The notes beneath the pieces were generated by a model. That model was not told the origin of the DNA, made no database searches, and saw only the letters and a list, made by a program, of their open reading frames with translations. A stretch of 64,000 nucleotides of DNA from Caenorhabditis remanei (lineage: Eukaryota > Nematoda > Chromadorea > Rhabditida > Rhabditidae): assembly GCF_010183535.1 (NCBI RefSeq), contig NC_071331.1:5084001-5148000 (forward strand), written 5' to 3'. Below, piece by piece: positions 2,297-62,407 of the stretch (within the stretch, counting starts at the first letter, position 1; each line of letters starts with the position of its first letter). The translations under genes and the position numbers were made by a program.

Positions 2297-2361
2297 CTGT
2301 TTCACTAATCTCACTGAATGTATTCAAGACGTTGCTCTGCTTATGCAGAACATTCTTTTTT
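2297..2361 (+). ncRNA. Candidate type I 21U-RNA (piRNA) locus
   Basis: A perfect CTGTTTCA core (2297-2304) is followed 37 nt later by a T at 2341 in a TGCT (YRNT) context. The predicted 21U-RNA begins TTATGCAGAACA. In Caenorhabditis such loci are single transcription units in which this core recruits SNAPc-related factors and the U becomes the 5' end of the PRG-1-bound piRNA. The block B paralogue at 10197 keeps the core but lacks a good start. The call rests on motif and spacing only. Confidence 0.6.
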
Positions 2362-4615
2362 AAACAATCGGATCACGAAAACCTGTTCAGTGGGTTTTTC
2401 AATCCCAGGTAATTCATTTTATTAGACAAATTGAAAATTTCCTCTGTTTTATTCTCCTTGTAATCTGTAAACCTTTTAATGGTCGAAACTTCTCTGCCAT
2501 GAATATCGTTGTCCCCAATTTTCCAGGAACCTTTCTCGTGATGATGGTTTCAAAGTAATTGTACTAGGCTTCACAATAGTAATAAGTTCTTGCAAACATG
2601 TTCATCTGAGAAGAAAATATTTTGTACGGCAATGGAAACTAGACGAAATAGCTTTAATAAAGGTTGTAAGGTAGCAATGTTGTTGTTTTCAGACTTTTTC
2701 TCGGTTTCTGACGATCCAAAAAGCTGGTTACTTTATTTTCATTCACTGGGTTCAGTTTTTGAAAACAATATGAGTAAAGTTTGTTGTTTAAAAAATGTTT
2801 TCTGACGACTTTCTGTGAGTTATCTCCAACAGACGCAAAAATAGTGTTTCAACACCATTTGAACAAATCGTGTATACCCTGCTGTGTTGTATGAATCCTG
2901 CCTGGAGGATTAAATGAAATTTTATTTTTTATTTTTATAACTAATAATGTGATTGCTGTATGAAAACGAAAATAACTGTGTTCTGTTTCGGCTCCCCTAT
3001 AAAGTTTAACATAAATAATTTTTTGTAATACCAGCTAGAATAATCGTGGCAATTACGAAAGATTATTTTTGTTCCGCAAAACAACAGATTCAATTTTTAA
3101 AAGGAATCCCTAGTTAGATCTACGAAAAAAAATCATACAATAGCAATACTAAAGGAAAACGTCTAAATAATAATAGAAACAATAAAACATTTAACATCTG
3201 AAAGTCATACTACTCTTGAAAAAAAAGAAGGAAGGAGAGGAAAGGCTTGTGAAGACAGCACAAGTAAGTCATTTCGAAATGTTTTGAAAATTTATCATTT
3301 CTAAAGTTGTAGTTTCGATTGCGTTCTGTCATTTATCGAATTGTGAACATTTGGTGGATTCCCTAATTTCTAAAGTAGCGAAAATAAAAACCATACAACC
3401 TCAAATAACGATTCCTATTATAATAAAGACCGGTCTTTACGGTAGTTTTCAATCATAATTTGTAAAATCAATTTTTACGGCTTCTACCTTGTTATGAAGT
3501 TGCCTGTCTTTTTAGTTTATAAATGTTGTTGATATTTGTAAAAATTGGAAAATTTTGAAGAACTTTCATGCGGACAATCGAATTTAATAGTTAGATATGA
3601 ACAAGGTAAATCTCTTTGTTATCGGAGCGTTAATAGAAATCGTTAAACAGTTAGAAAATGAAATTAAAATTTCTAAACAGTAAATAGAGTGAAACAATCA
3701 GTTATATTAGTTTGTGCTAAAGCGGGTCATCCCGACGGTGACATGGTTTCCAACGATTTACGAAAAACAGTGCATTTTCAGTAGAGTGTTGTCACGCGAG
3801 AATCAGCCTCGGCACTTTTCGGACGGTGACATGTTCCAGTTTCAGAGCCATTGCTAATACTGAAGATAATCGAATCGAAAAAATTTCTTCCGAGCATTTT
3901 TCTAGTTTTTTCACTGTTGCCTCAAGTTCCTATCTATCATCTCTCCATTTTGAGCTAACAGTCCTTTTTGCGCGTCGTATTTGAGATGGCTTGGGAAAGA
4001 GAACAGTAAGTCTTAAGTAGACAGACTATCTTGTTTCAAAATTTCCATAAATGTTTCTTCAATGAAAAGTCTAGTAATGATGTTTGCTGTTAGGAGGTTC
4101 ACAGTTTTTTTTAAAAACGATTTTGTGTGAGTTTACTGAACAACGTTTCAATTACTGAAAGTTACTGTTTTAAAGAGTCTAAAAAGATTCTCTGAAATGA
4201 GGAATGAATATTCCATTTGATAAGTTTGTAAACGTTAGTATGCCAATTCTTTCAAGATTTCTTTTTCGTTTATTTTGTCGTGTTTCGAACGATTTCTGGC
4301 GTGTCTCGTTTGATTGCTGAAATTCGGCCAACCTTATGTTTGAAGTTTTGTTGAACTCGTACACACCATTTCCATTTCTCCTCCTAGAAGCCTTTTCCGT
4401 AATAAATTCAACTTTTAGATTAATCTTTCATGATTGCCGTTTTGCTATTCCGAGACGTGCATGGCTGTAGTAATCAATGTGTCCCTCTGAAAACCAATAA
4501 ATAAGAACTCTACAACCGTAATTTTATGAAAAAATGGCCTACGAGGATTTATTGAATAAACGGTAAAATTTCAATTCAACAAGGAAAATTATAAAAAAAC
4601 AAATAAATTTCAAAT

Positions 4616-4679
4616 GGAATACATAAGTATTTACCAATAGTTAACAGAACACTGTAATAATCTAAAATACTTGAAACAG
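4616..4679 (-). ncRNA. Candidate 21U-RNA locus
   Basis: The core TGAAACAG at 4672-4679 reads CTGTTTCA on the minus strand. A T at 4636, 36 nt downstream in a TATT context, would start TGGTAAATACTT. Paralogues in block B (near 12670) and block C (26299-26306, TGAAACAT) have lost the exact core while the flanks remain recognisable. Confidence 0.6.
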
Positions 4680-4922
4680 ATTCAAAACTTTTTCGACTAT
4701 TTAGTTTTCCGACCCATAAACTTAATCTTGTTAGGTAGGTATCACAAATTTTGCGGGCCTTTGAAAAATGTCGGAAAATTTTTATTCCTACAATATCGCA
4801 CTACAAAAATAACGTCATTTGACACATTTGACATCCGAAACGAGTGCTACCGTAATAATTTGGTGTAAAATTTAAAGATTAATCACATCATCTGTGGAGA
4901 TTATTGAAGAAAGCAGAATATT

Positions 4923-4988
4923 CTACAGGAAAGGACTTCATGAGCAACCAGCAGAAGAGACTCTGATAATCTAAAACACTTGAAACAG
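4923..4988 (-). ncRNA. Candidate 21U-RNA locus
   Basis: The minus-strand core lies at 4981-4988. A TGCT context 38 nt downstream places the U at 4943, starting TCATGAAGTCCT. The flank between core and start resembles the loci at 13130 and 26732 in blocks B and C, so this is probably one ancestral locus kept in all three blocks. Confidence 0.6.
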
Positions 4989-5089
4989 GTTGATAATTTT
5001 TTGGCGAATTCGGTTTCATAGTCCCGATTTGTAATCTTTAATCGTTTTAGTTATTATATATTCTGGCTATCTTCTAATATGTTTTTTCT

Positions 5090-5560
5090 TGCAGCCGGTT
5101 TGGCTAGTTTCAGTTAGGTTTTGCGTTTATCGCTGGTTTGGATTGATTTTCTCGTGTTCCCCTGGGAATTCTAAGAATTTTATACTATACCACATCAGGC
5201 TCTGCCCCTTTTGACCTACCGAAACGATCGATTGAAGTAAAAAAATGAATGAGTGTCTAGAACAACCTCCCCAGATTTCAGTGGCTAGCCGAGTTATGAT
5301 CAAAAAAGTGACGAAATTTGATGCATTTCAACGTACCCCTCCATGTTAAAAAAATGGCTAGGTGACGAAAATCAAAAATATTTCTGATTTGAGTTATTCA
5401 GAGTTAGAATAGTATTCACACAACTTTTCAGACAATTCTGCCCATGTTTCAGTGAGTTACAGACACTTCCTCCACTTTTTCGACTCAAAAAGTTTGAGCT
5501 CTCGTGACTTTTCAGGTTATGAATTAAAATGTTGGAAAGTTCAAGGAAATACTGGAATAT
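5090..5560. repeat. Diverged half-copy of the TTAA palindrome family
   Basis: The run of motifs (GGGAATTCTAAGAATTTTAT, the 'cccctttgacctacc' segment, the 'gagttatgatcaaaaaagtg' segment, and 'caacgtacccctccatg') follows the arm of the palindrome at 27856-29473 in order. I see no second arm and no terminal GAGACAAT, so it is a truncated old copy. Confidence 0.6.
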
Positions 5561-7468
5561 AATTTAAAAAACACAAATACCTATTTATGTATGCATTTCT
5601 TCGACTATCACATGTTTAAAATAGGAAATAAATATGTATTAAAATCAAGATACACATTTGAATGAATTATAAGAATCAAATCGATTAGAAAACAAAAACA
5701 AAGATTGCAAGCTTAAATAGAAAAAAGTTGGTTACATGGAGATTCGCGAATATTTTTACACCAATCCATTTTATGAAACTGAAAATATTTCAATTTTTAA
5801 ACTGGCCTGGTCATGGAAAATTTTGTTAGTTACTAATCCATCTTTACCGTGTATTTTTGTGTTTTAGATGAGTTCATATGAATCACTGGAATTTAATACT
5901 TCTGCTGTTCTTGAACTGCTACAAATATAAATGTGTGGATTTGCATTTGATAACAAGGTTGAAAACCATGATTTATTCGAAGGTAAAACAACAATGTTGA
6001 GTGTTCTTCATGGTTTTCAATCTTCATTTTAAAAACTGAAAAACAAGTTGTAAGCAGGGTTTCGGGTTTTTGAAGGCTTTGCAACAGACACATTATGTAT
6101 CTGTTGATCTCTAAATGAATTAGACTAGCATATAGGTCTCATAGTGAAATGATTGTTTTATAACCATTGAAATGATCCATCAACTACAGATAAACTTGTT
6201 TATGAGTAATTATGAAGAAAACTATATTTGATCAATCACAATTGAGAGTTCGAGTTAATTTTTTGAACTTGCGTAACAGGCGATTAACTTTTTACAAATC
6301 AATTGGAGACTCTAGTCAACTTAATTACGTAAAACCTTTTGAGCTTTCAGAAAAAAAGTAATTCGGTTTTCGTATTTTGTTGACGATGAATCTTTATTTC
6401 ACGATGAAACTTTATTTCAGAGTATTTCGTCTATTCAAAGGATAAGTCATTCACTGGAAAAATAAGATCGCAATATGAAACAAGACGAAGCAATATATTA
6501 ACTGCTGTTTGAAACATTGTAAAGCTTTCTGTGAATCTTTCAATAATTTCTGGTTGAACTGATGAAAGCATTTTTAAGTTTCAGTGACGATGTAAAAATA
6601 TAACTGCGCGACTCGATAACAACATTAATATTGTGGAAACTCCGCGTGTATAAGTTGCGGATGAAACGGTCAAAATTTTTTAAAATTTCAATGAATTTGT
6701 TAATTCAAGTGTGCTTTCCATTCCACAATGAAAAATCGTCTCTTCCACCTTTCTCTCAACTCTCATTAGTCCCAATTTATTTCTTAAACAATGGCCTTCG
6801 TTGGTCTGCTCTTACCCGTCTCCATGACATCGCAACGTCTTGAAAAATATTGGCTTAGAATCCTATAGACATCAAAACCTTACATGCAGATACAGAACTT
6901 TTTCCGCTTTAATTTGTTCATTAATTGTCATTGCATCTGAAATCGTTTTGCTAATATAATAAGATTGGTTTCAATTTGCTGATTTTGAAAATAATTTCGA
7001 ATGAACAGATACATTTACAGGCGAACTCAAACAACACAACCTTTGGAAACTCATGTGAAAAATTAATCCAAACATTTTTTCCTTCAAAAATCATTTTTCA
7101 ATAATTATTCAAATTTCGAACGAATTTTGGTGTAGTCCAAAATTGGTGAGCTTATTATTACGGCAAATCAAAAACGGTAAAAATACTTGTAGACCGGATG
7201 ACGTAGCCGATTTCAGAAAAAATTTCAAAAATGGATGTGTAATTGTAAAACATTGTACTGGTAATACGCTGAATTAAAAACAGGGAAAAATTGTTCTGCA
7301 AGAGTTTTTCAATTTCTTCTGTTTCAAAGTTCTTATGAATTTTTAGAATCATGAATATTATGATCCCCGATTCACTCGCGATGGAAAAATAGACAGCTAC
7401 AAAAATTTTCAAATTTGTTTCATTTTCGCGTCTATCGTGAAACTTTTTTTCTGTTTTCCAGATTAGAA

Positions 7469-7870: not shown

Positions 7871-7937
7871 CTGTTTCATAGAGTGTTCTAAGTTGATTAA
7901 CATACTTTACTAGTACTCCAGGCGATGGCGTGTCAAA
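7871..7937 (+). ncRNA. Candidate 21U-RNA locus
   Basis: Perfect core at 7871-7878. Two overlapping starts are possible: T 7914 (TAGT, 36 nt) or T 7917 (TACT, 39 nt). The block A counterpart at 158-165 reads CTGCTTCA, one substitution away, so one copy has lost or never had the motif. Confidence 0.6.
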
Positions 7938-13070: not shown

Positions 13071-13137
13071 TGCATAATAAATCATCGCATAATAAATTAT
13101 CAGAAATCACAGTAATAACACATAATACTTGAAACAG
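13071..13137 (-). ncRNA. Candidate 21U-RNA locus
   Basis: Core TGAAACAG at 13130-13137. TATT with the T at 13091 (39 nt) starts TATGCGATGATT. It is paralogous to 26732 in block C, where the core is also perfect but the predicted 21-mer differs, so the two would produce different piRNAs. Confidence 0.6.
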
Positions 13138-13990: not shown

Positions 13991-14564
13991 CAGAGCTGTG
14001 CGGAATTCCTTCCTTCGACTTCCTTCTTTCTTCTTCCGGGCTTTTTTTACTTTTTTATTCCTTCTTCCTTCTTCCCTTTTGAAAGATTTACTTCCTTCTT
14101 CCTTCTTCGTTCTTCCCTTTTGAAAAAAATTATTTCCTTCTTCCTTGTTCCTTCTTCTGTTGAAAAGTTTACTAAAATTTTGTAATTTTCGACGGAATTT
14201 TGGCGGAATTTTGGTGGTTTTTGACGGAATTTTGTATGAAATAACATCAAAATTCGTTTTCAGAGATGACTAGATAAAAGTTCCCTCAAATTCGTCATTT
14301 TCAAAATTAACTTCCGATTTCCCGGTTCGAAACCCAACTTCTTTCTTCCTTCCTTCTTCCTTCCTTCTTTCTTCTTCCGGGCTTTTTTCACATTTTTCTT
14401 CCTTCTTCCTTCTTCCCTTTTGAAAAAGTTATTTCTTTCTTCCTTCTTCCTTTTTGAAAAAGTTATTTCTTTCTTCCTTCTTCCTTCTTCCTTTTTGAAA
14501 ATTTCATTTCCTTCTTCCTTCTTCCTTCTTCCCTTTCAAAAAATTTTACTTCCGCACAGCTCTG
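13991..14564. mobile_element. hAT-like MITE with polypyrimidine interior, 8-bp target duplication
   Basis: The inverted termini CAGAGCTGTGCGGAA and TTCCGCACAGCTCTG are exact. The flanks repeat GTGCCCGC at 13983-13990 and 14565-14572, an 8-bp target duplication typical of hAT transposases. The 574-bp interior is dominated by TTCCTTC repeats and encodes nothing. Block A gives the uninterrupted site near 6018. The same family recurs at 49685-50219. It is non-autonomous and no transposase is in the window. Confidence 0.85.
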
Positions 14565-16386
14565 GTGCCCGCTGTTCAATCTTAATTTTAAACACTGACA
14601 AATTAATTGTAAGCCGAGTTTCTGAAACATGGTATTTATTATGAAGCTGTTTTTTGAAGTCTCTTCAATAGACTTAATATGTATCTGTTGATCTCCAACT
14701 GAGTGGGTCCAGCACATCGGTCACATAGTGAAATGAATGTTTTATAACCATTGAAATGATCCCTCAAAAACAGTAGAACTTAATGATGAGTTGCTGCTGT
14801 TTGAAACATTGTTAAAATTTCTGTGAAACTTGAACTGTTGAATTCTTGTTTGAGTTTCTGTGTATGTTGCGAATGAAACGGTGAATCGAATTTTTTCAAA
14901 ATTTCAATGAAAATGCACATGAATTTGAGTTTGTTTTCTAACCCACAATGAAAAATAACATCATCTAATTGACACACCACCTCCATATCTTCTCCAAATC
15001 AAATATTAAATTGGCTCCGGACAAATCAAAAACAACTTTCGAAAAATTATGTGTTAGGATCCTGGTTGGGAAGGTGACATTTTTTCATGTTTCACGTTCT
15101 TTTGATTTATCAGTACAGCTCTCTGTTTTGATTTGTCTGAATAATTTGCAATTTTGTTTATACTTTCCAAAGAAAATATGCATTCACAAATGAACTGAAA
15201 CAACATAGAAACTCATGACAAAAGAGATTCAATTTTTTTTGTTGCACATATACTTACTTTAGGGATTGAAATTGTGATGCTTGTTCATTTTGCACATTAA
15301 ATTTCGTATTCTAACAATTTCACCATACAAATTATGTAGTTATTATATAGCTTGTGCCCAGTTCCTTTTCTCAAATCTGAATAAGAACAGTAAATCTTCC
15401 ATCTTCTGTTTTGAGAAGCGTATAAGTTAACAATCTGAATATTATTATTGGAAAATACTGCTTCTATGATACTGTAAACAAGTACTCGGTGGGATGAATA
15501 TGTCAATCCTGGATCAGAAGTATGTTATAAAGAAGCTTCCAGACCTAATTTTTCTGTGAGCACATTTTTTGAAAAAGATTCCAAAGAAACTACATTGAGC
15601 CATCCCTCAGGCAAACTTTTTATGATTACGCGGTTTCATTGCTGCAATGAATGTGATGTGTTCTCATGAGTTACATTTTGACGATTTTTTTTACAAGAGT
15701 TCCTGTTTCCTCATGATGATTTTAGGATGCGGGTTGAAAACTACTGTTCTCATGGTCATTTTTCTGAAATTCTTTTTTCAACAATAGAAAAATTTCAGCT
15801 TTCAGATAGCATCAAATGACAGAAGTTGTAAACCAATATTCATTTAAAGAAACATTTCACAATTTCAAAATGGTTTTTTAAAACTTCGCGGAAAGTTTAG
15901 ATTTATTAAATACTGGCAAATGAAAAGTGCTTGCTTCTGCGGTTGATCAAAAATTTTGGTTTTGAATAATTTCTCGTGTGTTGTGTTTGGTTTCTGGCAT
16001 TTAATGATGTTTATGATTGAACCAATCCAGTTCATATTGATATCAATTTTTGTTTCTAGAAAAGAATGGTCAGTGATTATTGAGAGCTCCGATTTTCCGA
16101 AAATAAAGAATTTGAACTCCTGGAATAATAAGAAACCAATTCTTGTCTTGAAAGTACTAATTGAGATAAAAATTTTCAATTGAAACCCATTCATGGAAAC
16201 GGTATTAATAATGTTTTTGAAAAGAAATTAGCTGTTATGATATGCGTTTCCGTTTGAACAATGAAAGGAAAAGTATTAATTCTATTGAATTTCTGTGAGC
16301 TAGAAACTTCTCGTGTTTTTTTAAAATTCGTGCAAACTATATTTTTGTGGTTTCCTTATGGAAGTATTTTTCGTAACTAGTTCAAA

Positions 16387-16452
16387 TTTTAGAGTGATCT
16401 TTTTCCAATAATTAGCAGAAGTCCCTCTCATAATCCAAAATACTTGAAACAG
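16387..16452 (-). ncRNA. Candidate 21U-RNA locus
   Basis: Core at 16445-16452. TATT with the T at 16407 (38 nt) starts TGGAAAAAGATC. The block C partner at 31420 keeps both core and spacing but has a different 21-mer. Confidence 0.65.
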
Positions 16453-16896
16453 AGTCATAATTTTATTGTTGGACGATTTTGGATTCAGGATTTATTTGAA
16501 TAATCATTGAAAGTCATCAGCAATACATTTGCTTCGATAAAAATGTTTTAATACTTTGTGAAACTGAAACCATAAAATAATAATTTTCAAGCACTTCAGA
16601 TCAGTAATCTGGAACCGATTTGAAATTTCTGTTCGAGGAATTTCACTTAAAAAATCTGATTCATGCATTGCCACAATGTTTCCAGTTTGGATCTTGAATT
16701 CCCTGTAATGATCAAGTTGCATCTCAACTCTAAGTTTAATACCTAGAAATTGAGTATCGGTTCAAATAAATAAGTTTTGATGTTTTGTCTCCATCGTCGT
16801 TCAGTCTGAAAAATCAATTCAAGAATAACAGTTTTCACTTGTTGCTCCAACTAAACAAAGTGTTCGCGGCGGAAGCATTGTTTTCTTCAAAAATCC

Positions 16897-16962
16897 CTGT
16901 TTCAATAATTTCAAATTTTTGAGCGAGCCTATGTGTTTTGCTGGTGTCGACGTGTTAATTTG
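16897..16962 (+). ncRNA. Candidate 21U-RNA locus
   Basis: Core at 16897-16904. TGCT places the U at 16942 (38 nt), starting TGGTGTCGACGT. The block C counterpart at 31614-31621 reads CGGTTTCA, so the motif is broken there. Confidence 0.65.
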
Positions 16963-17189
16963 ACCGCAGAACGTTTGAGGTGGAAATCAAAGAAAAGTTA
17001 CTGTTTTTCGACTTTAATATAGTTGTAGATTTCTATTCAAAAAACGTTAACATCATTTTCCGGGAATTACTATTTTATGTTTGATTACTATTTTATTTAA
17101 TGTTTCTTATCGGTTTTTTCATCTCGAATAGCATAAGATTGTAAATAATGTACAGTCTTTGATGCCTACTTTACTCCCGCCATACTCCC

Positions 17190-17384
17190 TCCATCAAAAA
17201 ACTTCGAAAGTTACATGTATTGAGTGAGTTTCACCACATTATATGTAAAGAATTATTTCTAACGTTTTGATCATGTCGACGAAATGCTGAAAAACTAATT
17301 ACAAATGAATGATGTGCTCCAAATCCGCGTTGGAAGTGATTTCCAAATCAAATGGGAATCACCACAACAGCTATTGTGAGAGAG
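17190..17384 (+). pseudogene. Block B relic of the coding fragment at 32240-32518
   Basis: It matches the second half of the 32240 fragment but carries an in-frame stop after MLKN and a shift near TTCTAACG. The shared peptide NSLQMNDV/WESPQQLL is still visible by conceptual reading. The first exon-like half is missing. The protein family is unrecognised. Confidence 0.45.
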
Positions 17385-18206
17385 GTAGAACAGTAGTTTT
17401 AATCTTTGTCTATTTCAATAAAACATTAAATTTGATTATGTTGTGACTATAACAGTTAATATGTGTTTTACTGTTCTTACAAGGAGAACAGCATACACTT
17501 GGAGCAAGAAGTTGATGAAGTGAATTTTGAATTTCAACTTTAAAATTCTGCATCAGTTTCATGTTCTATTTAAAGTGTGTAATCTAGCCCTCATGTCGTT
17601 AATAGATTAACTCCTATTGCAAAAATTATTTGTAGCAAATAATTTGTTTTGAAAAAAAAAATAATGCAATAGCACTCCATCAACTTTTATAAACAATTAA
17701 CAGTCATCATGACACTGTGTTTTCGAACAATAATCTTTAGAACAATCGCAATGTTTCAGCGATTCAATATGTTCTAGGCTGGACTTTAGATTTACTATAA
17801 TAGTTAGTTGTCTATTCTGTTGAGATGCATAATTTTGAAAATAAAGTGAAAGCGTCACTCAATTTTTTAGTTCAACTCTTGAAGATGCCACGAACTGAAT
17901 TGACAAAACCTATGTATTCAATTACACCTTCCCAGAAATAGTAGAAAATTTGAGACTACCATTCAAAGAACTTATTGGAATAAATTGTTTTTGAAAAGTA
18001 CTCATACTTTTTAGTTGCTAGGGTCTTGCTCGTGAGCAAACTTACGGTTTCCGAGATAGTTTAATAGTTTGGATGTTTTTGATTGTGTTGATTCGATTAC
18101 TAGTGGATCTGCCCGCGAAGAAAACTTGCCTATTCACGATCGAAAAATAATGCATTCATTTTCGATTTTAGTGTGAGGGAATCAATGAGATTGGCAAAAT
18201 CTGGCA

Positions 18207-18290
18207 ATACAATCATACTTGCGATAGGCCGGCCGGGATTTGGACATTTTCACCGGCCCGGAACGGTTCATCCTTGTTTCAATACAAAAA
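18207..18290. mobile_element. Partial GC-rich hAT-like MITE (shared with block C)
   Basis: CATACTTGC, the terminus of the GGCCGG MITE family, is followed by GGCCGGCCGGG and CCGGCCCGG. The right terminus is not visible. The same insertion occurs in block C at 34095, so it predates the B/C duplication. Confidence 0.5.
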
Positions 18291-18505: not shown

Positions 18506-19471
18506 ATCTTTACTAATAATATTCAGCAGATCCGTTTGTCTGTCCGTCTGTCGCCGACTCTAGCGCCCTCTGTACTGAACCGTTTTTAATGAAACTTACA
18601 CAGATCGCTTGGAAATTTTCCCCGGATGATGCCCGTCATTTTTTTTTAGTTAGAATAGTTCGAAACCAGGTCACTACGTGAAAAAATGTGGTTTTCAAGC
18701 CTTTCATTGCCTTTAATTTTCGAAATAGGTAAATAGGAGTTCACGGGAAAAATAGTTATGGAAACATTTCATTCTTCGAATAAATTCATTTCTTTAAATT
18801 GTCAGGAAAAATGCGTGGGTTTAAAACAATTTTTTTGGCTCTATTCAAGGTTAGATATCCTTTAAAAACTCGAACGTTCCATGAAACACTAAGACGTCCC
18901 TTAAAACACTTAAACGCCCTGTCATGCCCTAAATTTTTTCCAAAAGTTAAGACGTCCTTTCAAGTGTTCAAACGTCCCAAAAAACATTTATCTTTACTAA
19001 TAATATTCAGCAGATCCGTTTGTCTGTCCGTCTGTCGCCGACTCTAGCGCCCTCTGTACTGAACCGTTTTTAATGAAACTTACACAGATCGCTTGGAAAT
19101 TTTCCCCGGATGATGCCCGTCATTTTTTTTAGTTAGAATAGTTCGAAACCAGGTCACTACGTGAAAAAATGTGGTTTTCAAGCCTTTCATTGCCTTTAAT
19201 TTTCGAAATAGGTAAATAGGAGTTCACGGGAAAAATAGTTATGGAAACATTTCATTCTTCGAATAAATTCATTTCTTTAAATTGTCAGGAAAAATGCGTG
19301 GGTTTAAAACAATTTTTTTGGCTCTATTCAAGGTTAGATATCCTTTAAAAACTCGAACGTTCCATGAAACACTAAGACGTCCCTTAAAACACTTAAACGC
19401 CCTGTCATGCCCTAAATTTTTTCCAAAAGTTAAGACGTCCTTTCAAGTGTTCAAACGTCCCAAAAAACATT
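18506..19471 (+). repeat. 483-bp tandem duplication of the Helitron-like 5' end
   Basis: 18506-18988 and 18989-19471 appear identical, including a shared open frame (18799 and 19282). The second copy again begins A followed by TCTTTAC, so the element has two successive 5' termini. The same arrangement is mirrored at 39156-40121, showing that it existed before the inverted pair arose. Confidence 0.85.
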
Positions 19472-19900
19472 TAGACGTCCCAAAAACGTTTAAAAGTTCC
19501 ATGAAATGTTTAGACGTGGTTTCCTTAAAACATAGACACACTGATGCTTGCTTGCACTTTTTTCCATAACTTTAAGCTAGATGGTTGATGTCTCTGTGTT
19601 AAGGAATCCACTACTTCCCGGGTGCTGAGCCATTATCATGTCAAGATTCAAGGACGTTTTTGTTTTTAGGCAATCACTACTTCCAGGTGCCACAGCAAGC
19701 TCTTGGTTTTGAAAGTTTAAGCGACGTCCAAATATTTTTTGAACGACTAATTGGTTAAATACAATTTTGGGATTTTAAGGGACATCTAAACGGTTTTGGG
19801 ACGTCTAAACATTTCTGAGCATTTTTGGGACCCCAAAGAACGTTTAAGTGTTTTAAAGGACGTTTAAGTGTTTTAAGGGACGTTCGAGTTTTCAAAAGAC
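19350..19900. repeat. Degenerate ACGTCC/GGACGT minisatellite inside the Helitron-like element
   Basis: Units of about 20-22 bp built on AAACGTCCCAAAAAACATTT run in one orientation up to about 19520. The complementary GGACGT units follow from about 19720, so the region forms an imperfect large palindrome. The same unit forms an array outside the element at 62690-63005. Confidence 0.65.
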
Positions 19901-22025: not shown

Positions 22026-22092
22026 TCAAACTTTAGGTTGGACTGATCGGTTCCCAAAAGCAATGAATTTATTGATAAAGGATTTGAAACAG
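22026..22092 (-). ncRNA. Candidate 21U-RNA locus
   Basis: Core at 22085-22092. CGAT with the T at 22046 (39 nt) starts TCAGTCCAACCT. It forms a close divergent pair with the plus-strand core at 22163, 70 bp away. Confidence 0.6.
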
Positions 22093-23858: not shown

Positions 23859-23924
23859 TTACCTACCGTTCCGCAATTATTACGTCCTGAAAAACTTCAG
23901 TTCAAAAAGAACATGCTGAAACAG
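23859..23924 (-). ncRNA. Candidate 21U-RNA locus
   Basis: Core at 23917-23924. TAAT with the T at 23879 (38 nt) starts TAATTGCGGAAC. No paralogue was found in the window. Confidence 0.6.
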
Positions 23925-26673: not shown

Positions 26674-26739
26674 GAGACACATGGTAAATCACTAATAGTT
26701 AACAGAAGTAACTGTAATAACACATAATACTTGAAACAG
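26674..26739 (-). ncRNA. Candidate 21U-RNA locus
   Basis: Core at 26732-26739. TATT with the T at 26694 (38 nt) starts TAGTGATTTACC. It is the block C paralogue of 13130 and 4981. Confidence 0.65.
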
Positions 26740-30524: not shown

Positions 30525-30591
30525 CTGTTTCATTGAGATAGTTTGAGAATAACTGTTTTTTGAGAACTGCTATTCTTCTATATTGGTGTTT
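30525..30591 (+). ncRNA. Candidate 21U-RNA locus
   Basis: Core at 30525-30532. TGCT places the U at 30571 (39 nt), starting TATTCTTCTATA. The block B counterpart at 15703-15710 reads CTGTTTCC, one base off. Confidence 0.65.
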
Positions 30592-31361: not shown

Positions 31362-31427
31362 ACACGTCCAAAAGTAAGACCAATAATAAGCATAAGTCAC
31401 TCTAATAATCCAAAATTCTTGAAACAG
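31362..31427 (-). ncRNA. Candidate 21U-RNA locus
   Basis: Core at 31420-31427. TATT with the T at 31382 (38 nt) starts TGGTCTTACTTT. Paralogous to 16445, with the same spacing and a diverged 21-mer. Confidence 0.65.
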
Positions 31428-32723: not shown

Positions 32724-32789
32724 CTGTTTCATGTTCTGTTCAAAGCGTGTAATCTAACCCAATGTCATTCATTGATTAACTCTTACAAA
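32724..32789 (+). ncRNA. Candidate 21U-RNA locus
   Basis: Core at 32724-32731. CATT places the U at 32769 (38 nt), starting TCATTGATTAAC. Block B at 17554-17561 reads CAGTTTCA, so the duplicate has lost one base of the core. Confidence 0.65.
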
Positions 32790-40571: not shown

Positions 40572-40637
40572 AACATTTTCAATATAAGATTATCAATGCG
40601 AAACTTTGGGTGAAGATAAATGACCCGAATGAAACAG
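40572..40637 (-). ncRNA. Candidate 21U-RNA locus
   Basis: Core at 40630-40637. TGAT with the T at 40592 (38 nt) starts TAATCTTATATT. It lies between two minus-strand gene relics, matching the promoter-relic spacing of the plus-strand units. Confidence 0.6.
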
Positions 40638-41548: not shown

Positions 41549-41615
41549 CTGTTTCAGCTGGGTATTATTATTCGGGATTCGAAGTTTGGAATGATAGTTC
41601 ACAAAAATTTTGACA
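41549..41615 (+). ncRNA. Candidate 21U-RNA locus
   Basis: Core at 41549-41556. TGAT places the U at 41595 (39 nt), starting TAGTTCACAAAA. It belongs to a family in which the start consistently sits in an AATGATA-type context (42488, 47883, 51227, 60487). Confidence 0.7.
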
Positions 41616-42442: not shown

Positions 42443-42508
42443 CTGTTTCATTTGGGTCATTTATCTAGACCCGAAATTTTGCAATGATAATCTTACAATT
42501 ACTCTTTT
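42443..42508 (+). ncRNA. Candidate 21U-RNA locus
   Basis: Core at 42443-42450. TGAT places the U at 42488 (38 nt), starting TAATCTTACAAT. A relic exon begins about 20 nt beyond the predicted 21-mer. Confidence 0.7.
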
Positions 42509-43217: not shown

Positions 43218-43466
43218 TTGGTTCATTCATTTAGACCCAAGTTGGAGTCTGATTATGGAAGTGTTGTAGTTTTCACTCAATTCAAAGCATCGCTGGTGCG
43301 CGTTAAACGCGTTTTACGAGGATCCCGATTTGTATCAAGAAATAATCTATTTTGCGTTTCAGAAAGCGATAATCTGGAAAAAATGACGCACATTATAAGG
43401 ATGTTATCAAGCAGTGTTCATATTGAAGAGATAGAGAACGACTTGTGATATCAGACTAAACAAATG
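43218..43466 (+). pseudogene. Relic of the SLVRVRRV family, split by a retrotransposon
   Basis: The frame TQFKASLVRVKRVLRGSRFV and NLEKMTHIIRMLSSSVHIEE is continuous to a TGA at 43446. Its 3' part continues at 44991 (ELVMEEKVEKPKASSI) after the reverse-transcriptase element. A CTGTTTCG at 43209-43216 upstream is a one-base-decayed piRNA core. Confidence 0.5.
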
Positions 43467-43474
43467 AAGAACTG

Positions 43475-44830
43475 TCTCGGGGTTCTGTTCCAAAAGTGTG
43501 GAAACACTCTTACATCCTTCCTCTCAATAAAACTGCTAAGCCCTCGCAACCGTCAGACTTCAGACCTATTTCTATCACTTCCCAAATATGCCGAATCTAC
43601 GAAAGATTTCTATTGAAACAGATCATAGCGCATCTTGACTCAATCAACTTTTGGAGCGACGAGCAGCACGGTTTCCGCCCCAGGAGGTCTACAGTATCAT
43701 GCATGTTAACCGCATTAAACGACTGGACAGATAATATAGATAGAGGTAACCAAGTAGACATTGTTTACTTAGATTATGCTAAAGCTTTTGATCGCGTACA
43801 AAATGACTTACTACTAGCTAAACTTGTCGAAGTTAGACTGAATCCGTCACTAATCAGGTGGATCGATTCATTTCTTTCCGAGAGATATTTTGAGGTTAAG
43901 GTGGGAAAATCATATTCAGCTAAACGTAAGGCACTATGCGGAGTCCCGCAAGGTTCAGTCCTATCCCCCATTCTTTTCGGCATTTTCGTCAATGATGTCC
44001 CAAAAACGTTACCACCTGGAGTCAAATGCCGTCAGTTTGCAGACGACCTAAAAATTTATGCCTCCTTCTCCAACTCAGATTCTAACTCTCTTCCTAATCG
44101 TCTCCAATTAGCTTTAGATTCTGTAATTCTATGGTCCAAAAAAGCAAAATTAGACTTGAACAATAGTAAAACCGAATGCATTACCCTAGGCAACAGAAGA
44201 GCTATGAATACCTACACTATAGACGGTAATACTGTTAGTCAGAAAACACTGATAAGAGATCTTGGGTTCCTCATAAGCCCCAAACTTGACTTCAGTGAAC
44301 ATTGGCACAAGGCCACCAACGCAGCTAAATTCCTCGTCTCCCAAATATTTACTAAATACAATAGTAACGACTCTAAAATCATGACTCTTTTGTATAAAAC
44401 CTTCATTAGACCAGTTCTAGAGTATGGAACGGAAGTAAGCAGCCCGTACAAAAAATGCGATATCAGGGCAATTGAATCTATTCAAAATTCGTTCACACGC
44501 CGCCTCCTCAGCAGACAGATCGGGAGGTATCTTACACCATCCGACCCGGACTACTTGTCAGCCAATCAACGTAACGACAAATATGGCCTAGCCTCTCTGG
44601 AGCACCGCAGACAAACAACAGACTACAAAATGATTCTCAAAATGCAACTAGGCAAAATTGATATTAACACTGAAGACTTCTTCACGACCAACACATTCAC
44701 TAAAACACGCAGTAACAACACATTCCACTGGAAAGCAGGAAAAACTAAAACTAGGCGCAACTTCTTTATTCACCGCACACTTAGCCGCGTTGCCATCAGC
44801 TCTGACCGACCGCCCATCTCTCCTAACTGA
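43475..44830 (+). CDS. Reverse transcriptase of a CR1/jockey-type retrotransposon (N-terminally truncated)
   Basis: This is an RNA-directed DNA polymerase used in target-primed reverse transcription. It is open from the element's first codon to a TGA at 44828, with no internal stop. Recognisable blocks in order are P..WK..YILPL.K near the start, DFRPISI, EQHGFRPRRST, the catalytic aspartate in VDIVYLDYAKAFD, GVPQGSVLSPILF, and the active-site FADD (QFADDLKIY). A conserved C-terminal region RDLGFLISPKLDFS and a basic tail follow. The endonuclease domain and ORF1 are missing through 5' truncation, so it cannot move by itself. The lack of disabling mutations suggests a recent insertion. No ATG starts the frame, and GTG 43496 is merely the first alternative start. 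Confidence 0.9.
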   Translation, partial: SRGSVPKVWKHSYILPLNKTAKPSQPSDFRPISITSQICRIYERFLLKQIIAHLDSINFWSDEQHGFRPRRSTVSCMLTALNDWTDNIDRGNQVDIVYLDYAKAFDRVQNDLLLAKLVEVRLNPSLIRWIDSFLSERYFEVKVGKSYSAKRKALCGVPQGSVLSPILFGIFVNDVPKTLPPGVKCRQFADDLKIYASFSNSDSNSLPNRLQLALDSVILWSKKAKLDLNNSKTECITLGNRRAMNTYTIDGNTVSQKTLIRDLGFLISPKLDFSEHWHKATNAAKFLVSQIFTKYNSNDSKIMTLLYKTFIRPVLEYGTEVSSPYKKCDIRAIESIQNSFTRRLLSRQIGRYLTPSDPDYLSANQRNDKYGLASLEHRRQTTDYKMILKMQLGKIDINTEDFFTTNTFTKTRSNNTFHWKAGKTKTRRNFFIHRTLSRVAISSDRPPISPN

Positions 44831-45567: not shown

Positions 45568-45575
45568 CTGTTTCA
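45568..45575 (+). promoter_or_regulatory. piRNA core motif separated from its start by a MITE insertion
   Basis: The perfect CTGTTTCA is followed two bases later by the GC-rich MITE (45578-45778). The expected AT-rich spacer and start reappear at 45787, beyond the insertion (GGGCTATTATTCTGCACTC). The intact paralogue is 47838-47903. This locus is probably dead or redirected. Confidence 0.75.
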
Positions 45576-45577
45576 TC

Positions 45578-45778
45578 CATACTTGTCAAATCACGGGCCG
45601 GCCCGCGGGCCGGGCCGGGCCGGGCCGGGCTCTCTGAAAATTTCAGGGCCCGGGCCGGCCCGCAGGGCCCGCAGCAAGCTTTTTTTTCAATATTTTGACG
45701 GGCCGGCCCGGGCCGGGCCGGGCCGGGCCGGGCCGGAAGATTTTTTTAGCGGGCCCGGCCCGGCCCGTGACAAGTATG
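45578..45778. mobile_element. GC-rich hAT-like MITE, complete, with an 8-bp target duplication
   Basis: The termini CATACTTGTCA and TGACAAGTATG are exact inverted repeats. GTTTCATC is duplicated at 45570-45577 and 45779-45786. The 201-bp interior is almost entirely GGCCGG/GGGCC repeats, very different from the AT-rich host sequence. It encodes nothing. Confidence 0.9.
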
Positions 45779-46073
45779 GTTTCATCAGGGCTATTATTCT
45801 GCACTCAAAATCTTAGAGTGATGCCTCGAACGGTTTCCACATATTTAGCAAATGAGAAAGTGCGCTCTATCAAACTAGATCAGATCCCGTTGTGGTGTAA
45901 ATTACTGTGTTAAAATAATTCATGTTTTGCATGAGTACTGGACGAAATTCGGAGTAGAGTTGCAGAACATTGTGAACGTGAAGCAACTACAGTAGGAGAA
46001 ATATGTGAAATACCTTTCATGAAGTGAGATGTAATGACGTTTGGTTGTACTGGAAATCTCTGATGACCACTTA

Positions 46074-46964: not shown

Positions 46965-47031
46965 AAAGAACAGTGGAAAAACAAACCATTCGTATTTAAA
47001 AGTTGGTGCTAAAATGAACATTTTGAAACAG
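46965..47031 (-). ncRNA. Candidate 21U-RNA locus
   Basis: Core at 47024-47031. TGGT with the T at 46985 (39 nt) starts TTTGTTTTTCCA. It pairs with the plus core at 47053, forming a divergent pair 22 bp apart. The same pair recurs at 48224/48253. Confidence 0.65.
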
Positions 47032-47052
47032 CATGCATATTTCATGAAGACT

Positions 47053-47119
47053 CTGTTTCATCTCGGTGATTACATGTTTCAGAATGATAGTTTCGCGGTT
47101 ATTTATAGACCTATGACCA
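47053..47119 (+). ncRNA. Candidate 21U-RNA locus
   Basis: Core at 47053-47060. The usual AATGATAG start has moved too close (28-31 nt) because of a 7-bp deletion relative to 48253. A new CGGT context places a U at 47099 (39 nt), starting TTATTTATAGAC. It borders the MITE at 47118. Confidence 0.5.
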
Positions 47120-47432
47120 TACTTGTCACGGGCCGGGCTGGGCCAAAATTAGGACGAGCGGCCCGGCCCGCTCGTCCCGTTTTGAAACAGTTTTGAAAAT
47201 TTGATGTTTTTTTAAAAAAATTTTGAAAAAAAAAGTTTTCGAATAAAAATTCAAAATTCAATAAAAAGGTAAATATGTATGATAATTTATGCATTTTTAC
47301 TCAAAATTTTCGAAAAAAAATTGGTAAAAATGAGTACCCATTTTTGAATCCGGGCCGACCGGGCCGGACCAAGAGAAATTTCGGCCCGGCCCGGCCCGAT
47401 TTTTTGGCCCGGCCCGATTTTTGACAAGTCTG
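47118..47432. mobile_element. GC-rich hAT-like MITE, longer form, target duplication not visible
   Basis: Left terminus CATACTTGTCA, right terminus TGACAAGTCTG. GGCCGG tracts lie at both ends around an AT-rich centre, as in 54653-54946. The 8-bp flanks do not match (CCTATGAC versus ATTTTAAG), suggesting recombination or a deletion at one edge. Confidence 0.65.
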
Positions 47433-47439: not shown

Positions 47440-47751
47440 GTGGTAGTCAGAAACCTGGTGAGTCCAGTAGAACCAGGCGCCATTCAAAGATTAAAATCTA
47501 TCCATGTTATGAAACAGAAGAACAAATACTTAAAGAAATTCAGGCTAGGGGTTCAAGACAATGCACAAACTACAGTAAGAAAATTAAGAGAGTGTATTCT
47601 TACGAAATCAAAGGTACTGTATTCGAGTCACCAAATGTTTTGTGTTTTGTATGGAAAGGAGTATACTTCCGTTAAAAAACATTCAAAAAAAAATGGTAGG
47701 ACTGATTCAGAATCGGCTGGAGTACCCGAAAAAAGAAGAATTACGGGCTAG
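47440..47751 (+). pseudogene. Unrecognised repeated open frame, copy 2 (103 codons)
   Basis: An open frame with a basic C-terminal part ending GRTDSESAGVPEKRRITG. Its DNA is shared with 45303-45500 (+) and a fragment at 40124-40235 (-). The codon pattern near the end looks coding, but the start lies at a MITE edge, so the frame is probably a fused relic. No family is recognised. Confidence 0.35.
47452..47517 (-). ncRNA. Candidate 21U-RNA locus
   Basis: Core at 47510-47517. TGGT with the T at 47472 (38 nt) starts TTCTACTGGACT. The copy at 45304 has TGAAACGG and is presumably inactive. Confidence 0.6.
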
Positions 47752-47837
47752 TTGCACACGAATGACTAATAATAAGATCTCAAATATATTATACAACCAA
47801 AATGAAGGTTTTGAAACTGCATATTTATTCCAATAAT

Positions 47838-47903
47838 CTGTTTCATCTGGGCTATTATTCTGCACTCAAAATCTTAGAATGATACCTTGAACGGTTTCCA
47901 CAT
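47838..47903 (+). ncRNA. Candidate 21U-RNA locus
   Basis: Core at 47838-47845. TGAT places the U at 47883 (38 nt), starting TACCTTGAACGG. This is the uninterrupted paralogue of the MITE-split locus at 45568, and it is close to 60442. Confidence 0.7.
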
Positions 47904-48164: not shown

Positions 48165-48231
48165 AAAAGAAGGTTAGTACAAACACCATTCCTATTTAAA
48201 AATTGGTGCTAAAATGAACATTATGAAACAG
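48165..48231 (-). ncRNA. Candidate 21U-RNA locus
   Basis: Core at 48224-48231. TGGT with the T at 48185 (39 nt) starts TGTTTGTACTAA. Divergent partner of 48253 and paralogue of 47024. A third copy at 52923-52930 reads TGAAACTG. Confidence 0.65.
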
Positions 48232-48252
48232 TATGCATATTTCATGAAGACT

Positions 48253-48318
48253 CTGTTTCATCTCGGTCATTACTGACGCAATGTTTCAGAATGATAGTTT
48301 GGCGTACACCTATTTGTG
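48253..48318 (+). ncRNA. Candidate 21U-RNA locus
   Basis: Core at 48253-48260. TAGT places the U at 48298 (38 nt), starting TTGGCGTACACC; TGAT with the T at 48295 is an alternative. The third copy (52952-52959) reads CTGTCTCA. Confidence 0.65.
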
Positions 48319-48389: not shown

Positions 48390-49075
48390 TCGCCCATTTT
48401 TGATTGACTCTGATTGTCCTGGTCCTGTTTTCATCAATAGAAGTTGTTAATTATATCATCGCTGGTGTGCCTTTAGGGCGTTCAGTCGCAAAGAAAAGAT
48501 TGCTGACTTGTGCGGAAGTGATTTTTCTAAAACGGAAGTCGGAAATTGGAAATCGGAAGTCGGAAGTCGGTAGTAGTTTTTTGCAACTATTCACAACTCC
48601 AAGAGACAAATCGTAAAATTCGCAAAAATCAGTGGAAAAATAATTTTTGGCAGGAGAAAAGCCTATTTCCTGTCCTTTAGATCATTTTTCAATGTATTTC
48701 TGCAAAATGCATTCTTCCTAAATTCGCCTGTTATGGAATGACGGAAGTCGGAAGTCGGAAGCAAACTTTTCAAAACGGAAGTAGGAAGTGGGAAGTCGGA
48801 ATTCTGCTCAATTCTAGTGAAAATCAGAAGATAAAATATATTAATACTCTGAAACGGGGGGAAACAAATTAATAAGGGAATACTTTATGTAAATTAGGTG
48901 TAGTGGTTCCGGATATTGAAAAAAACAACTGTAGGGTAATTGTGCGAGTGCCTGGCGCGCCAAGGACGCGTTTTGATTTGTCATGATAAGGTGTCTACTG
49001 TTACAAAAAACTCTTACGGTTTCGAAAGTTACATAGAAAAAACGTGTACTAAAGCAGTTGATGAAACGTGAAAGA
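48390..49075 (+). pseudogene. Relic exons of the gene family, interrupted by a GGAAGTCGG element
   Basis: An SSIEVVNYIIAGVPLG-like frame occurs at 48430-48480. After the low-complexity insertion (48516-48815) comes the CTGGCGCGCCAAGGACGCG segment and an FESYIEKTCTKAVDE-like frame, as at 60805. Several stops separate the parts. Confidence 0.4.
48516..48815. repeat. Diverged MITE of GGAAGTCGG type
   Basis: It opens with GTGCGGAAGT, closes with GGAATTCTGCTCAATTCT, and holds runs of GGAAGTCGGAAG. The ends resemble the hAT-like family at 13991 (GTGCGGAATTCC), so it is probably an old relative. A shorter remnant lies at 60558-60606. Confidence 0.5.
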
Positions 49076-51181: not shown

Positions 51182-51247
51182 CTGTTTCATTTTGGTCATT
51201 TACCTAGACAAAAAGTTTCGGGATGATAAAATTTGACGGAATTTTCC
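51182..51247 (+). ncRNA. Candidate 21U-RNA locus
   Basis: Core at 51182-51189. TGAT places the U at 51227 (38 nt), starting TAAAATTTGACG. It is the counterpart of 42443, with identical architecture and a downstream relic exon. Confidence 0.7.
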
Positions 51248-51560: not shown

Positions 51561-51595
51561 AAGATTCTGAAAATGCATAATTTTCAATAAATATT

Positions 51596-51661
51596 CTGTT
51601 TCATTTTGATCATTATTCGGGACTCAACGTTTCGTGATGGTTGTTTTACAACGGTTTAAAT
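51596..51661 (+). ncRNA. Candidate 21U-RNA locus
   Basis: Core at 51596-51603. TGGT places the U at 51641 (38 nt), starting TTGTTTTACAAC. A competing TGAT start lies at 51638 (35 nt). It is only 414 bp from the previous locus, a tandem duplicate. Confidence 0.65.
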
Positions 51662-53699: not shown

Positions 53700-53765
53700 T
53701 GTGACATAATTGAATAATGACTATTATCATTCCCAGCTAAAAAATTAATGATCTAGATGAAACAG
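53700..53765 (-). ncRNA. Candidate 21U-RNA locus
   Basis: Core at 53758-53765. TAGT with the T at 53720 (38 nt) starts TCATTATTCAAT. It converges on the plus locus at 53494 and is paralogous to 62400, whose 21-mer differs at a few positions. Confidence 0.65.
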
Positions 53766-54946: not shown

Positions 54947-55030
54947 GTTATAACTTCTCTCGAAAACTGTAAAATAAGCAGTGGACATGTGTATCAATCA
55001 GATGGTTTTCTCATACACCAGTCGGTTGAC

Positions 55031-57380: not shown

Positions 57381-57386
57381 GTAGAG

Positions 57387-58572: not shown

Positions 58573-58637
58573 GCCAAGCACAGTTAATCAGTACTAGTTT
58601 CAGAAAAAGTTTAACATAGACCCTCATGATGAAACAG
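58573..58637 (-). ncRNA. Candidate 21U-RNA locus
   Basis: Core at 58630-58637. TAGT with the T at 58593 (37 nt) starts TACTGATTAACT; TACT at 58590 is the alternative. It is divergent from 58772. Confidence 0.6.
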
Positions 58638-58771
58638 AAAATTGGAGAACAACTAATCCGTTTTTCAGAATTTAGAGTACATCATAATACTGTACTTTTG
58701 TAAAAAAAAATACTTGGGAACATTGTGAATGAGAGCAAGAGAAGGTTGGGAAATATATAATAATTTTTAAC

Positions 58772-58838
58772 CTGTTTCACCTGGGTCATAACTTCCTTAA
58801 CTATTAAAACTCGATGTTCCTTCGTCGCATAACATAGT
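58772..58838 (+). ncRNA. Candidate 21U-RNA locus
   Basis: Core at 58772-58779. TGTT places the U at 58818 (39 nt), starting TCCTTCGTCGCA; CGAT at 58815 (36 nt) is the alternative. Confidence 0.6.
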
Positions 58839-60355: not shown

Positions 60356-60441
60356 TTGTGATCCCTAAAAATGAAATGAAAATAAACTGAAATGAAACAA
60401 CTAAAATGAACGTTTTGAAACTGCATATTTATTCTAATAAT

Positions 60442-60507
60442 CTGTTTCATCTGGGTTATTATTCTGCACTCAAAATCTCAGAATGATTCCTGTCCTTTAG
60501 ACCATTT
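60442..60507 (+). ncRNA. Candidate 21U-RNA locus
   Basis: Core at 60442-60449. TGAT places the U at 60487 (38 nt), starting TTCCTGTCCTTT. It lies just past the 3' end of the 59.7-kb gene and could overlap its 3' untranslated region. Confidence 0.7.
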
Positions 60508-60804
60508 TTCCAAGTATTTCTGCAAAATGCATTCTTCCTTAATTCCCCTGTTATGGAATGACGGAAGTTGGAAGTCGGAAGTAGGAAGTCGGAATTCCGC
60601 TCAACTCTGAAAGCTGATCTTTCAAAAATTATATTTTAGAATGGGTGAGGCAAGTTAAAACCACATAGCCGATTCTAGTGTAAATCAGAAGGTAAAATAT
60701 ATTAATATTCTGAAACGGGGGGAAACAAATTAATAAGGGAATACTTTATGTAAATTAGGTGTAGTGGTTCCGGATATTGAAAAAAAAACCACTGTACGGT
60801 TATT

Positions 60805-61036
60805 GTGCGAGTGCTGGCGCGCCACGGACGCGTTTCGATTTGTCATGATAAGGCGTCTACTGTTACAAAAAATTCTTACGGTTTCGAAAGTTACTTAGAA
60901 AAAACGTGTACTAAAGCAGTTGATGGTGATAGAAATCGCAACATTGAAATACTTCATGCGAAAGTGAATGAAGAATTGATAAAGTTGAGTAGGAGAGTAA
61001 GACTCTCAGAGCGATTGGGATTTCCAAAAGTATGTA
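60805..61036 (+). pseudogene. Relic exon of the gene family, cut by a palindromic transposon
   Basis: It is open for 77 codons and looks coding (FESYLEKTCTKAVDGDRNRN and ELIKLSRRVRLSERLGFPK). The DNA start (GTGCTGGCGCGCCACGGACG) corresponds to the GCGCG..GACGCGTTT segment of the SLVRVRRV copies. The frame runs into the element at 61037. Duplicates at 48925 and 53270 are more decayed. Confidence 0.5.
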
Positions 61037-62170
61037 CAGTAGCGAGCATAAGTGAGTATACCTCCATACTTTCATATGTAACTCAGCTGAAACAAGTCCG
61101 TTTTGCACATACTTTTTTTTCAAAGATAGCTGAAACATCCAGTAAAATTGACATACGTTTTTTGTTTGTAGTGATCGGCTGATTTTTTTGATTATCGATT
61201 TTTCTTGATCTTGATTTAAAAATCCGAAAAAAAACTTTTTATTTTTGAACTGGACCCTATGATTTTTTAAGTTGAAAATGTTGAGTAACGTTCATAAAAA
61301 CAAAATATGATGTTAGAATGCTTCTGTAAATCTTGATCATCGTGCTACAGCTCCAGAAGCTCAAAATGATATGTATAGCTAAATCGTTATAACTCATTGC
61401 AAAATGGTCCGAATAAGCCGAAAAATGCGGGAAAAGATGCGTATTATGTTTATCATCAATCTTATGTTCAAAAATAATAATTTCGAGAAAATTTTTTTTT
61501 CGAATTTTTTTCACTCGAAAAATTTTGGTTTCCAATTTTTGCCCAATTTTTCATGTTTTTTGATTATAAAACAGTAACAATTTGCGAGTTTGAGTTGAAT
61601 TTCACATGAAACATCAAATTTAGATTTTCATTAATTTAATTACAGCTGTTTCATAATCAAAAAACACGAAAAATTGGGCAAAAATTGGAAACCAAAATTT
61701 TTCGAGTGAAAAAAAATCGAAAAAAAATTTTTCTCGAAATTATTATTTTAAAATATAAGATTGTTGATAAACATAATACGCATCTTTTCCCGCATTTTTC
61801 GGCTTATTCGGACCATTTTGCAATGAGTTATAACGATTTAGCTATACATATCATTTTGAGCTTCTGGAGCTGTAGCACGATGATCAAGATTTACAGAAGC
61901 ATTCTAACATCATATTTTGTTTTTATGAACGTTACTCAACATTTTCAACTTAAAAAATCATAGGGTCCAGTTCAAAAATAAAAAGTTTTTTTTCGGATTT
62001 TTAAATCAAGATCAAGAAAAATCGATAATCAAAAAAATCAGCCGATCACTACAAACAAAAAACGTATGTCAATTTTACTGGATGTTTCAGCTATCTTTAT
62101 GCAAGACGGACTTGTTTCAGCTGAGATACATATGAAAGTATGGAGGTATACTCACTTATGCTCGCTACTG
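61037..62170. mobile_element. TA-flanked palindromic element (Tc1/mariner-like target)
   Basis: The termini CAGTAGCGAGCATAAGTGAG and its complement are flanked by TA (61035-61036 and 62171-62172). The arms are about 540 bp, with matching 92-codon open frames at 61257-61535 (-) and 61685-61963 (+), and a spacer of about 75 bp. A TA target and CAGT ends are typical of Tc1/mariner transposition. No transposase is encoded, so it is a foldback, non-autonomous form. The uninterrupted paralogue is near 53400. Confidence 0.8.
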
Positions 62171-62340
62171 TAGATATATGAACAATTTGAAATTGTAAAT
62201 TTTCGGAATTTGTTTCATCTTTACCATTTCTTTTTTTCTTTGAACTAGGAATAATAATAATAATAATGGTATCAAATTTTCAGAAAAACTATGGAAATTT
62301 ATTAAAAAGCGGGCAAACGAGGAACTAAGAGAACGGATAT

Positions 62341-62407
62341 TGTGACATAATTAAATCACGACTATTATCATTTCTAGTTGAAAAAATAAATAATCTGGAT
62401 GAAACAG
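62341..62407 (-). ncRNA. Candidate 21U-RNA locus
   Basis: Core at 62400-62407. TAGT with the T at 62361 (39 nt) starts TCGTGATTTAAT. Paralogue of 53758. The convergent plus-strand partner here has decayed to TTGTTTCA (62210-62217). Confidence 0.65.

Follow-up and report, generated by a model that had tools for sequence, protein, structure and literature searches.

Type I 21U-RNA genes on chromosome IV of Caenorhabditis remanei probably keep their promoters and replace their products after local duplication

The stretch analysed here comprises 64,000 nucleotides (nt) of chromosome IV of Caenorhabditis remanei PX506 (C4:5084001-5148000; hereafter, the window), and its sequence features support its assignment to the chromosome IV cluster of type I 21U-RNA genes, i.e., genes for PIWI-interacting RNAs (piRNAs), the individual loci being predicted. 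Within this cluster, promoters have probably been kept and products replaced after duplication. Each locus would constitute a tiny gene composed of a CTGTTTCA core, a spacer of approximately 38 nt, a YRNT start, and a 21-nt product. Local duplication has enlarged the cluster; afterwards the promoter (from about -75 to the start base) is retained, presumably because the core-to-start spacing matters, and the product segment changes more than the DNA on both sides, mainly via short insertions and deletions (indels) and, in one instance, apparently via a larger deletion that reaches the start site.

Change in the predicted product segment

Many loci of the window are paralogous owing to local duplication, as BLAST comparisons between loci indicate, with aligned blocks of up to 3.7 kb. 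In many locus pairs the matches stop near the predicted 21U start: over 592 directed, non-independent pairs (those with YRNT being counted), the promoter match ends at 0 to +4 nt from this start in 108 cases, the adjacent 5-nt bins holding 24 and 20. The 5' ends of the promoter homology are diffuse, falling mostly between -80 and -30 and reaching -300. The pile-up of match ends alone is compatible with conserved promoters and freely drifting bodies.

Some of the duplicates include both flanks, which a merely drifting body should resemble. The paralogue test covered 318.6 kb of chromosome IV sequence with 148 cores (122 with YRNT), from which 33 full-length pairs sharing no locus were taken, each locus being used once and the best-scoring pair first. 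Pairs aligned over less than 60 nt past the body or with unaligned cores were excluded, and two stretches from chromosome III (L036 and L037) were left out; the expectation was derived from random windows of the same alignments (20,000 draws). The 20-nt body contains 128 change events versus 86.4 +/- 10.2 expected (P = 5e-5), and its mean identity is 0.729 versus 0.836 (P = 1.5e-4). Indels of 4 nt or more are present in the bodies of 20 of the 33 pairs versus 7.3 expected, a number reached in none of the 20,000 draws. Windows placed at ten other offsets (-81 to +127 nt) contain 2-9 such indels (7.2-7.3 expected), none significantly above expectation, and the only one with a nominal excess of change events lies at -21 (P = 0.047). 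Forty decoy words given the same treatment, excluding decoys that lie 80 nt or less from a true predicted 21U start, yield indels in 23 of 120 cases, as compared with 20 of 33 at the real cores (Fisher P = 8.6e-6).

The indel excess is also observed with a fixed start (20 of 36 versus 7.6 expected), with four alternative scoring schemes (18-20 of 32-41 versus 6.0-9.9), and in the first version of the test with 28 pairs (17 versus 6.4). The stretches at 5.53-5.54 Mb were added later, being picked from searches with whole 10-kb samples; six pairs from them contribute 4 of the 20 indel-bearing bodies, and 16 of 27 pairs carry indels when the 5.5 Mb region is omitted (6.2 expected). Body identity recovers after about +21, and 20 of 28 pairs show lower conservation in the body than in the downstream flank. 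These comparisons suggest that the 21-nt product segment is a hotspot of change between paralogues while the promoter is kept. A lenient first alignment scheme ran into unrelated DNA, and its table, in which the means also dip in the body, was set aside. The possibility that the inserted sequence was templated or arose in tandem was rejected: of 17 body indels measuring at least 6 nt, none has a local copy significantly longer than those of random segments from the same stretch (lowest P 0.17). A literature search restricted to titles and abstract openings, with few subscription papers among the sources, returned no published comparison of change in the body and in the flanks.

The larger deletion is apparent at locus 60442 (60442..60507, + strand; predicted 21U at 60487-60507). 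Positions 60397-60486, a 90-nt segment that ends immediately before the predicted 21U start, match 47793-47882 (94%), and positions 60487-60576 match 48667-48756 (93%). At the boundary 60486/60487, identity drops from 0.97 to 0.35 with the 47838 segment and rises from 0.27 to 0.95 with the downstream segment. The copy at C4:4955538, which is related to the 47838 segment, likewise has extra DNA between both matched parts; a 784-nt deletion in the 60442 copy is therefore the simplest account. The promoter was thus apparently joined to formerly downstream DNA, which would have given rise to a new predicted 21U in one step.

Assignment to the type I 21U-RNA cluster

Type I 21U-RNAs are 21 nt long, start with a 5' U, and are bound by PRG-1; their precursors are capped and start 2 nt upstream. 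The genes depend on PRDE-1 and SNPC-4, have an exact core-to-start spacing of 38 nt, and carry an A/T-rich terminator signal downstream. The core word, YRNT spacing, occurrence on both strands, location in the chromosome IV domain, and a nematode host all fit the type I reading put forward in the original prediction, which was made from the DNA letters alone and made no mention of the paralogy of many loci or of the replacement of their predicted 21U segments. It is inferred that the loci are expressed and that the 21U starts lie where predicted. In C. elegans and C. briggsae, type I genes are described with a spacer of about 40 nt from the core to the 21U (PMC3597512) and with YRNT as the initiator (PMC6436959), while 21U-RNA genes are reported in megabase clusters on chromosome IV, with C. 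briggsae also having one on chromosome I (PMC9683057). The window shares the core word, spacer, YRNT, two-strand arrangement, and chromosome IV location with the type I (Ruby-motif) clusters of these two species; it differs in that its loci are visibly paralogous and in that the rate of change of the body was compared with that of the flanks. The 21U-RNAs of C. remanei have already been profiled, and their number is put at 2-3 times that of C. elegans (PMC6468775); taken by themselves, the loci therefore belong to a known kind. Local duplication with gene-by-gene replacement of the product is not described in the accessible part of that review.

Chromosome IV (C4) of C. remanei PX506 spans 25,790,997 nt and chromosome III (C3) 17,877,849 nt, and the left arm of chromosome IV runs to 8.6 Mb (PMC10461856, Table 1), which places the window in this arm. 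Perfect CTGTTTCA cores number 43 in the window (22 on the + and 21 on the - strand), the first at 2297 and the last at 62400-62407. The original prediction of a two-strand cluster stands, while its count of 42 cores, 21 per strand, is to be corrected to these figures. By chance, 2.5 cores are expected from base composition (2-3 in the original prediction); Markov models give 4.2 (order 1), 9.7 (order 3), 16.3 (order 4), and 22.1 (order 5), the higher orders partly including the word itself. For 200 permutations of the letters of the word, the mean is 2.8 copies in the window and the maximum 13, as opposed to the 43 cores. In the genome searched (130,466,896 bases in 186 contigs), the core occurs 19,000 times and the reversed word 6,781 times. 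The genome mean is 9.3 cores per 64 kb, and the window has 4.6 times this density rather than the even genome-wide distribution that the original prediction had named as an argument against itself. Chance abundance of the word is excluded by the composition and Markov expectations, the genome counts, and the permuted words.

A YRNT motif with its T 35-41 nt past the core accompanies 38 of the 43 cores (43% at random positions). In 28 of the 43 the T lies exactly 38 or 39 nt downstream, the background for such two-position matches at distances of 60-119 nt being 6.9 on average and 12 at most; the earlier counts (34 of 39 at 35-41 nt, 26 at 38/39) were close to these. Cores with one mismatch show the same spacing signal (YRNT at 38/39 in 66 of 206, 30 expected), so that further loci, beyond those marked by perfect words, are probably present in the window. 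Along chromosome IV, twenty 10-kb samples were surveyed. Eleven samples from 1.5 to 13 Mb contain 56 cores, 31 of them with YRNT at 38/39; correctly spaced cores occur in nine of these samples and are absent from those at 3.5 and 11 Mb. Eight samples from 15 to 23 Mb contain 2 cores, neither with YRNT at 38/39, and the sample at 0.5 Mb contains no core, i.e., none of the nine samples outside 1.5-13 Mb has a correctly spaced one. With 6.7 cores per 10 kb, as compared with 5.1 in the 1.5-13 Mb domain, the window is typical rather than exceptional.

Evaluation of the proposed turnover

Several observations weigh against the replacement of products at retained promoters. Substitutions alone are marginally raised at default scoring (0.129 versus 0.105, P = 0.055); for the other five runs, the P values obtained lie anywhere between <0.001 and 0.12. 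The division into indels and substitutions therefore depends on scoring. Body identity is below that of the upstream flank in just 13 of 23 pairs (28-pair set), and, counted by family, below that of the downstream flank in 10 of 16 (P = 0.012). Indels occur in 10 of 13 pairs in which the second core is degenerate (3.8 expected) and in 7 of 15 in which it is perfect (2.7 expected), and the five pairs that have a core and lack YRNT behave alike (indels in 2 of 5, identity 0.64). As the excess is thus also seen with degenerate cores or without YRNT, it need not depend on current activity or transcription. The least conserved positions are +10 to +12 and not the seed, although gap placement is arbitrary and the exact position of the minimum is not to be over-read. 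The 21U starts are predicted ones, and the pairs stem from a limited number of families of one genome, mostly at 4.95-5.27 Mb, two of the alignments being weak (scores 113 and 75). One locus at 5.5 Mb seems, by eye, to lie beside an exon, so that the flank there would be conserved.

Were the 8-mers to serve a purpose other than piRNA transcription (e.g., as part of a repeat family or of another promoter type), the presence of many cores within duplicated DNA would be accounted for; nevertheless, families without detectable kinship share the core and YRNT spacing, cores with one mismatch have the same spacing, the density tracks the chromosome IV domain, and Rfam and tRNA scans of the window gave no matches, which makes such a purpose extremely improbable. 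Another possibility is that the promoter is mobile, i.e., that a transposable element ends at the start base and that, wherever it inserts, the adjoining DNA supplies a new piRNA. When one promoter (47838 family) was searched against the genome, eight further places emerged, corresponding to seven copies, of which one is interrupted by an insertion. Homology reaches 94% and, in seven of these eight places, stops at the 21U start or within 4 nt of it (match end at query position 96-100 of 129, the start being 96), and the 5' homology ends lie mostly at -80 to -30, as might be expected of an element. However, the copies of this family, the one searched, are not dispersed, all eight places lying at 4.95-5.14 Mb of the same chromosome, within 200 kb; the 5' ends are diffuse and reach -300, both flanks are common to many pairs, and a deletion best explains the 60442 case. 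The copy distribution and the shared flanks thus render a mobile promoter very unlikely. According to the published neutral view, promoters are constrained and 21U bodies are unconstrained, drifting at the ordinary rate. A comparison of species from which little selective pressure on piRNA sequences is inferred (PMC9683057) is in line with it, as are the promoter blocks ending at the start base, which fit drift alone, and the marginal substitution excess at default scoring. In full-length duplicates, however, the body changes more than both the flanks and the decoy sites within these segments, with identity rising again past about +21; the neutral view is consequently considered unlikely, if less so than a mobile promoter.

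If products are indeed replaced at retained promoters, the driver might be selective or mutational. Under diversifying selection, new 21Us would be favoured, for new targets or for escape from self-targeting, and indels rewriting the product would be fixed more often. The excess matches the extent of the product, stopping near +21, and total change events are raised more when both cores are perfect (ratio 1.82 versus 1.21). On the other hand, identity is lowest at +10 to +12, with the seed (+1 to +7) changed less, contrary to the simplest expectation for selection on targeting; besides, substitutions rise little at default scoring, and an excess of indels of at least 4 nt is likewise seen with one degenerate core. 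Such selection is possible, its probability being put well below even. Transcription-linked mutation, in which repeated initiation and pausing of RNA polymerase II (Pol II) would cause small indels in the first ~25 nt, comes closer to an even call while staying on its lower side. It agrees with the confinement of the indel excess to the +1 to +20 window and with the Pol II pausing and ~28-nt precursors described at piRNA genes (PMC6436959), but the 17 longer body indels give no sign of locally templated insertion, the excess is not weaker where one core is degenerate, and its extent past the start rests on 33 pairs only. Since it is in the indels that the excess is most consistent, a hotspot of mutation in the transcribed start region is slightly favoured as the driver. 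It is rather doubtful, albeit conceivable, that type I piRNA genes are built-in generators of diversity, in which germline initiation and pausing would make the first 20-odd nt prone to indels and selection on spacing would protect the promoter.

Implications for piRNA diversity

A minimal unit of core, spacer, and synthetic 21-mer is reported to be expressed in C. elegans (PMC3597512). The promoter thus accepts other following sequences, and each change of the body would accordingly make a new piRNA; the indel excess would in this way matter for piRNA diversity. The origin of new piRNA genes in worms is presented as an open question in a study of C. briggsae, which suggests a yet undiscovered mechanism (PMC9683057); duplication of a promoter cassette followed by indels in the product would constitute a concrete and testable answer to it. 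In fly clusters, a piRNA locus likewise gains new product sequence, there by transposon insertion (PMC9683057), whereas here a small indel or a deletion at the start of a single-product gene would suffice, with no transposon capture. If the excess is mutational, piRNA transcription would be tied to heritable sequence diversification. If, moreover, the genes act as generators of diversity, the 21U repertoire would be continually rewritten at fixed promoters; this would loosely resemble antigen-receptor loci, the variable parts of which are also rewritten, and would differ from them in being heritable and taking place over generations.

Predicted loci and other features

For the 28 loci with YRNT at 38/39, intervals extend from the core to the predicted 21U end. 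Members of paralogue pairs are located at 4613..4679 (-; core 4672-4679), 4923..4988 (-), 7319..7384 (+), and 7871..7937 (+; indels in the 21U). The locus at 13071..13137 (-) is an 88% paralogue of 26732 over 483 nt with a changed 21U, and the one at 26674..26739 (-) is a paralogue of 13130 and C4:5264256. For 16387..16452 (-) there is a near-identical copy at C4:5267648, and for 16897..16962 (+) a copy at C4:5268088 with 99.3% identity outside the 21U and a 4-nt indel within it; homology between 31362..31427 (-) and 16445 stops at the 21U start. The locus 42443..42508 (+) is a 79% paralogue of 51182 over 559 nt. At 53700..53765 (-), the 21U region has an extra 43 and 16 nt relative to C4:4964442, and 62341..62407 (-) is a paralogue of 53758. 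Paralogue comparisons also include 30525..30591 (+), 40572..40637 (-), 41549..41615 (+), 51182..51247 (+), and 51596..51661 (+), while 22026..22092 (-), 23859..23924 (-), 32724..32789 (+), 47452..47517 (-), and 58772..58838 (+) are predicted from the core and YRNT spacing.

The locus 47838..47903 (+) has promoter copies at 60442, C4:5012589, C4:4955583, and other places. A further copy of this family at 45568..45800 (+) is split just after the core by a GC-rich insertion of ~200 nt, which has inverted ends (by eye, CCATACTTGTCA / TGACAAGTATGG) and is flanked by a direct repeat of 6-8 nt; with its promoter split, this locus is probably dead. An element related to the insertion is found just downstream of the predicted product of 47053..47119 (+; a paralogue of 48253), at about 47110-47190. 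The divergent partner of 47053 is 46965..47031 (-), with core starts 29 nt apart, and 48165..48231 (-) is the divergent partner of 48253..48318 (+), the latter having a 12-nt indel in the 21U relative to C4:5015726. Both divergent promoter pairs (47024-47060 and 48224-48260) are duplicated, with the same 29-nt distance between core starts and intervening DNA common to both cores; they are possibly natural bidirectional piRNA promoters.

Larger duplications are seen at 14563-18271, where a 3.7-kb segment shares 99.4% identity with C4:5265758-5269459, owing either to recent duplication or to a haplotype left uncollapsed, and at 18506-19473, where a 483-nt unit occurs twice in tandem with 99% identity. 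The stretch L002 (~1339-5113) has many relatives on contigs C1, C2, C4, and C5, several of them in tandem steps of ~1.2-1.5 kb. In stretch L006, the predicted piRNA at site 6086 (-) appears on visual inspection to be intronic, immediately preceding a 3' splice site, and its paralogues carry a different 21U segment. A Pfam scan of 10 of the 51 listed open reading frames found a domain in one of them: the 456-residue frame (stop to stop) at 43460-44830 (+), which contains a reverse transcriptase domain (RVT_1).

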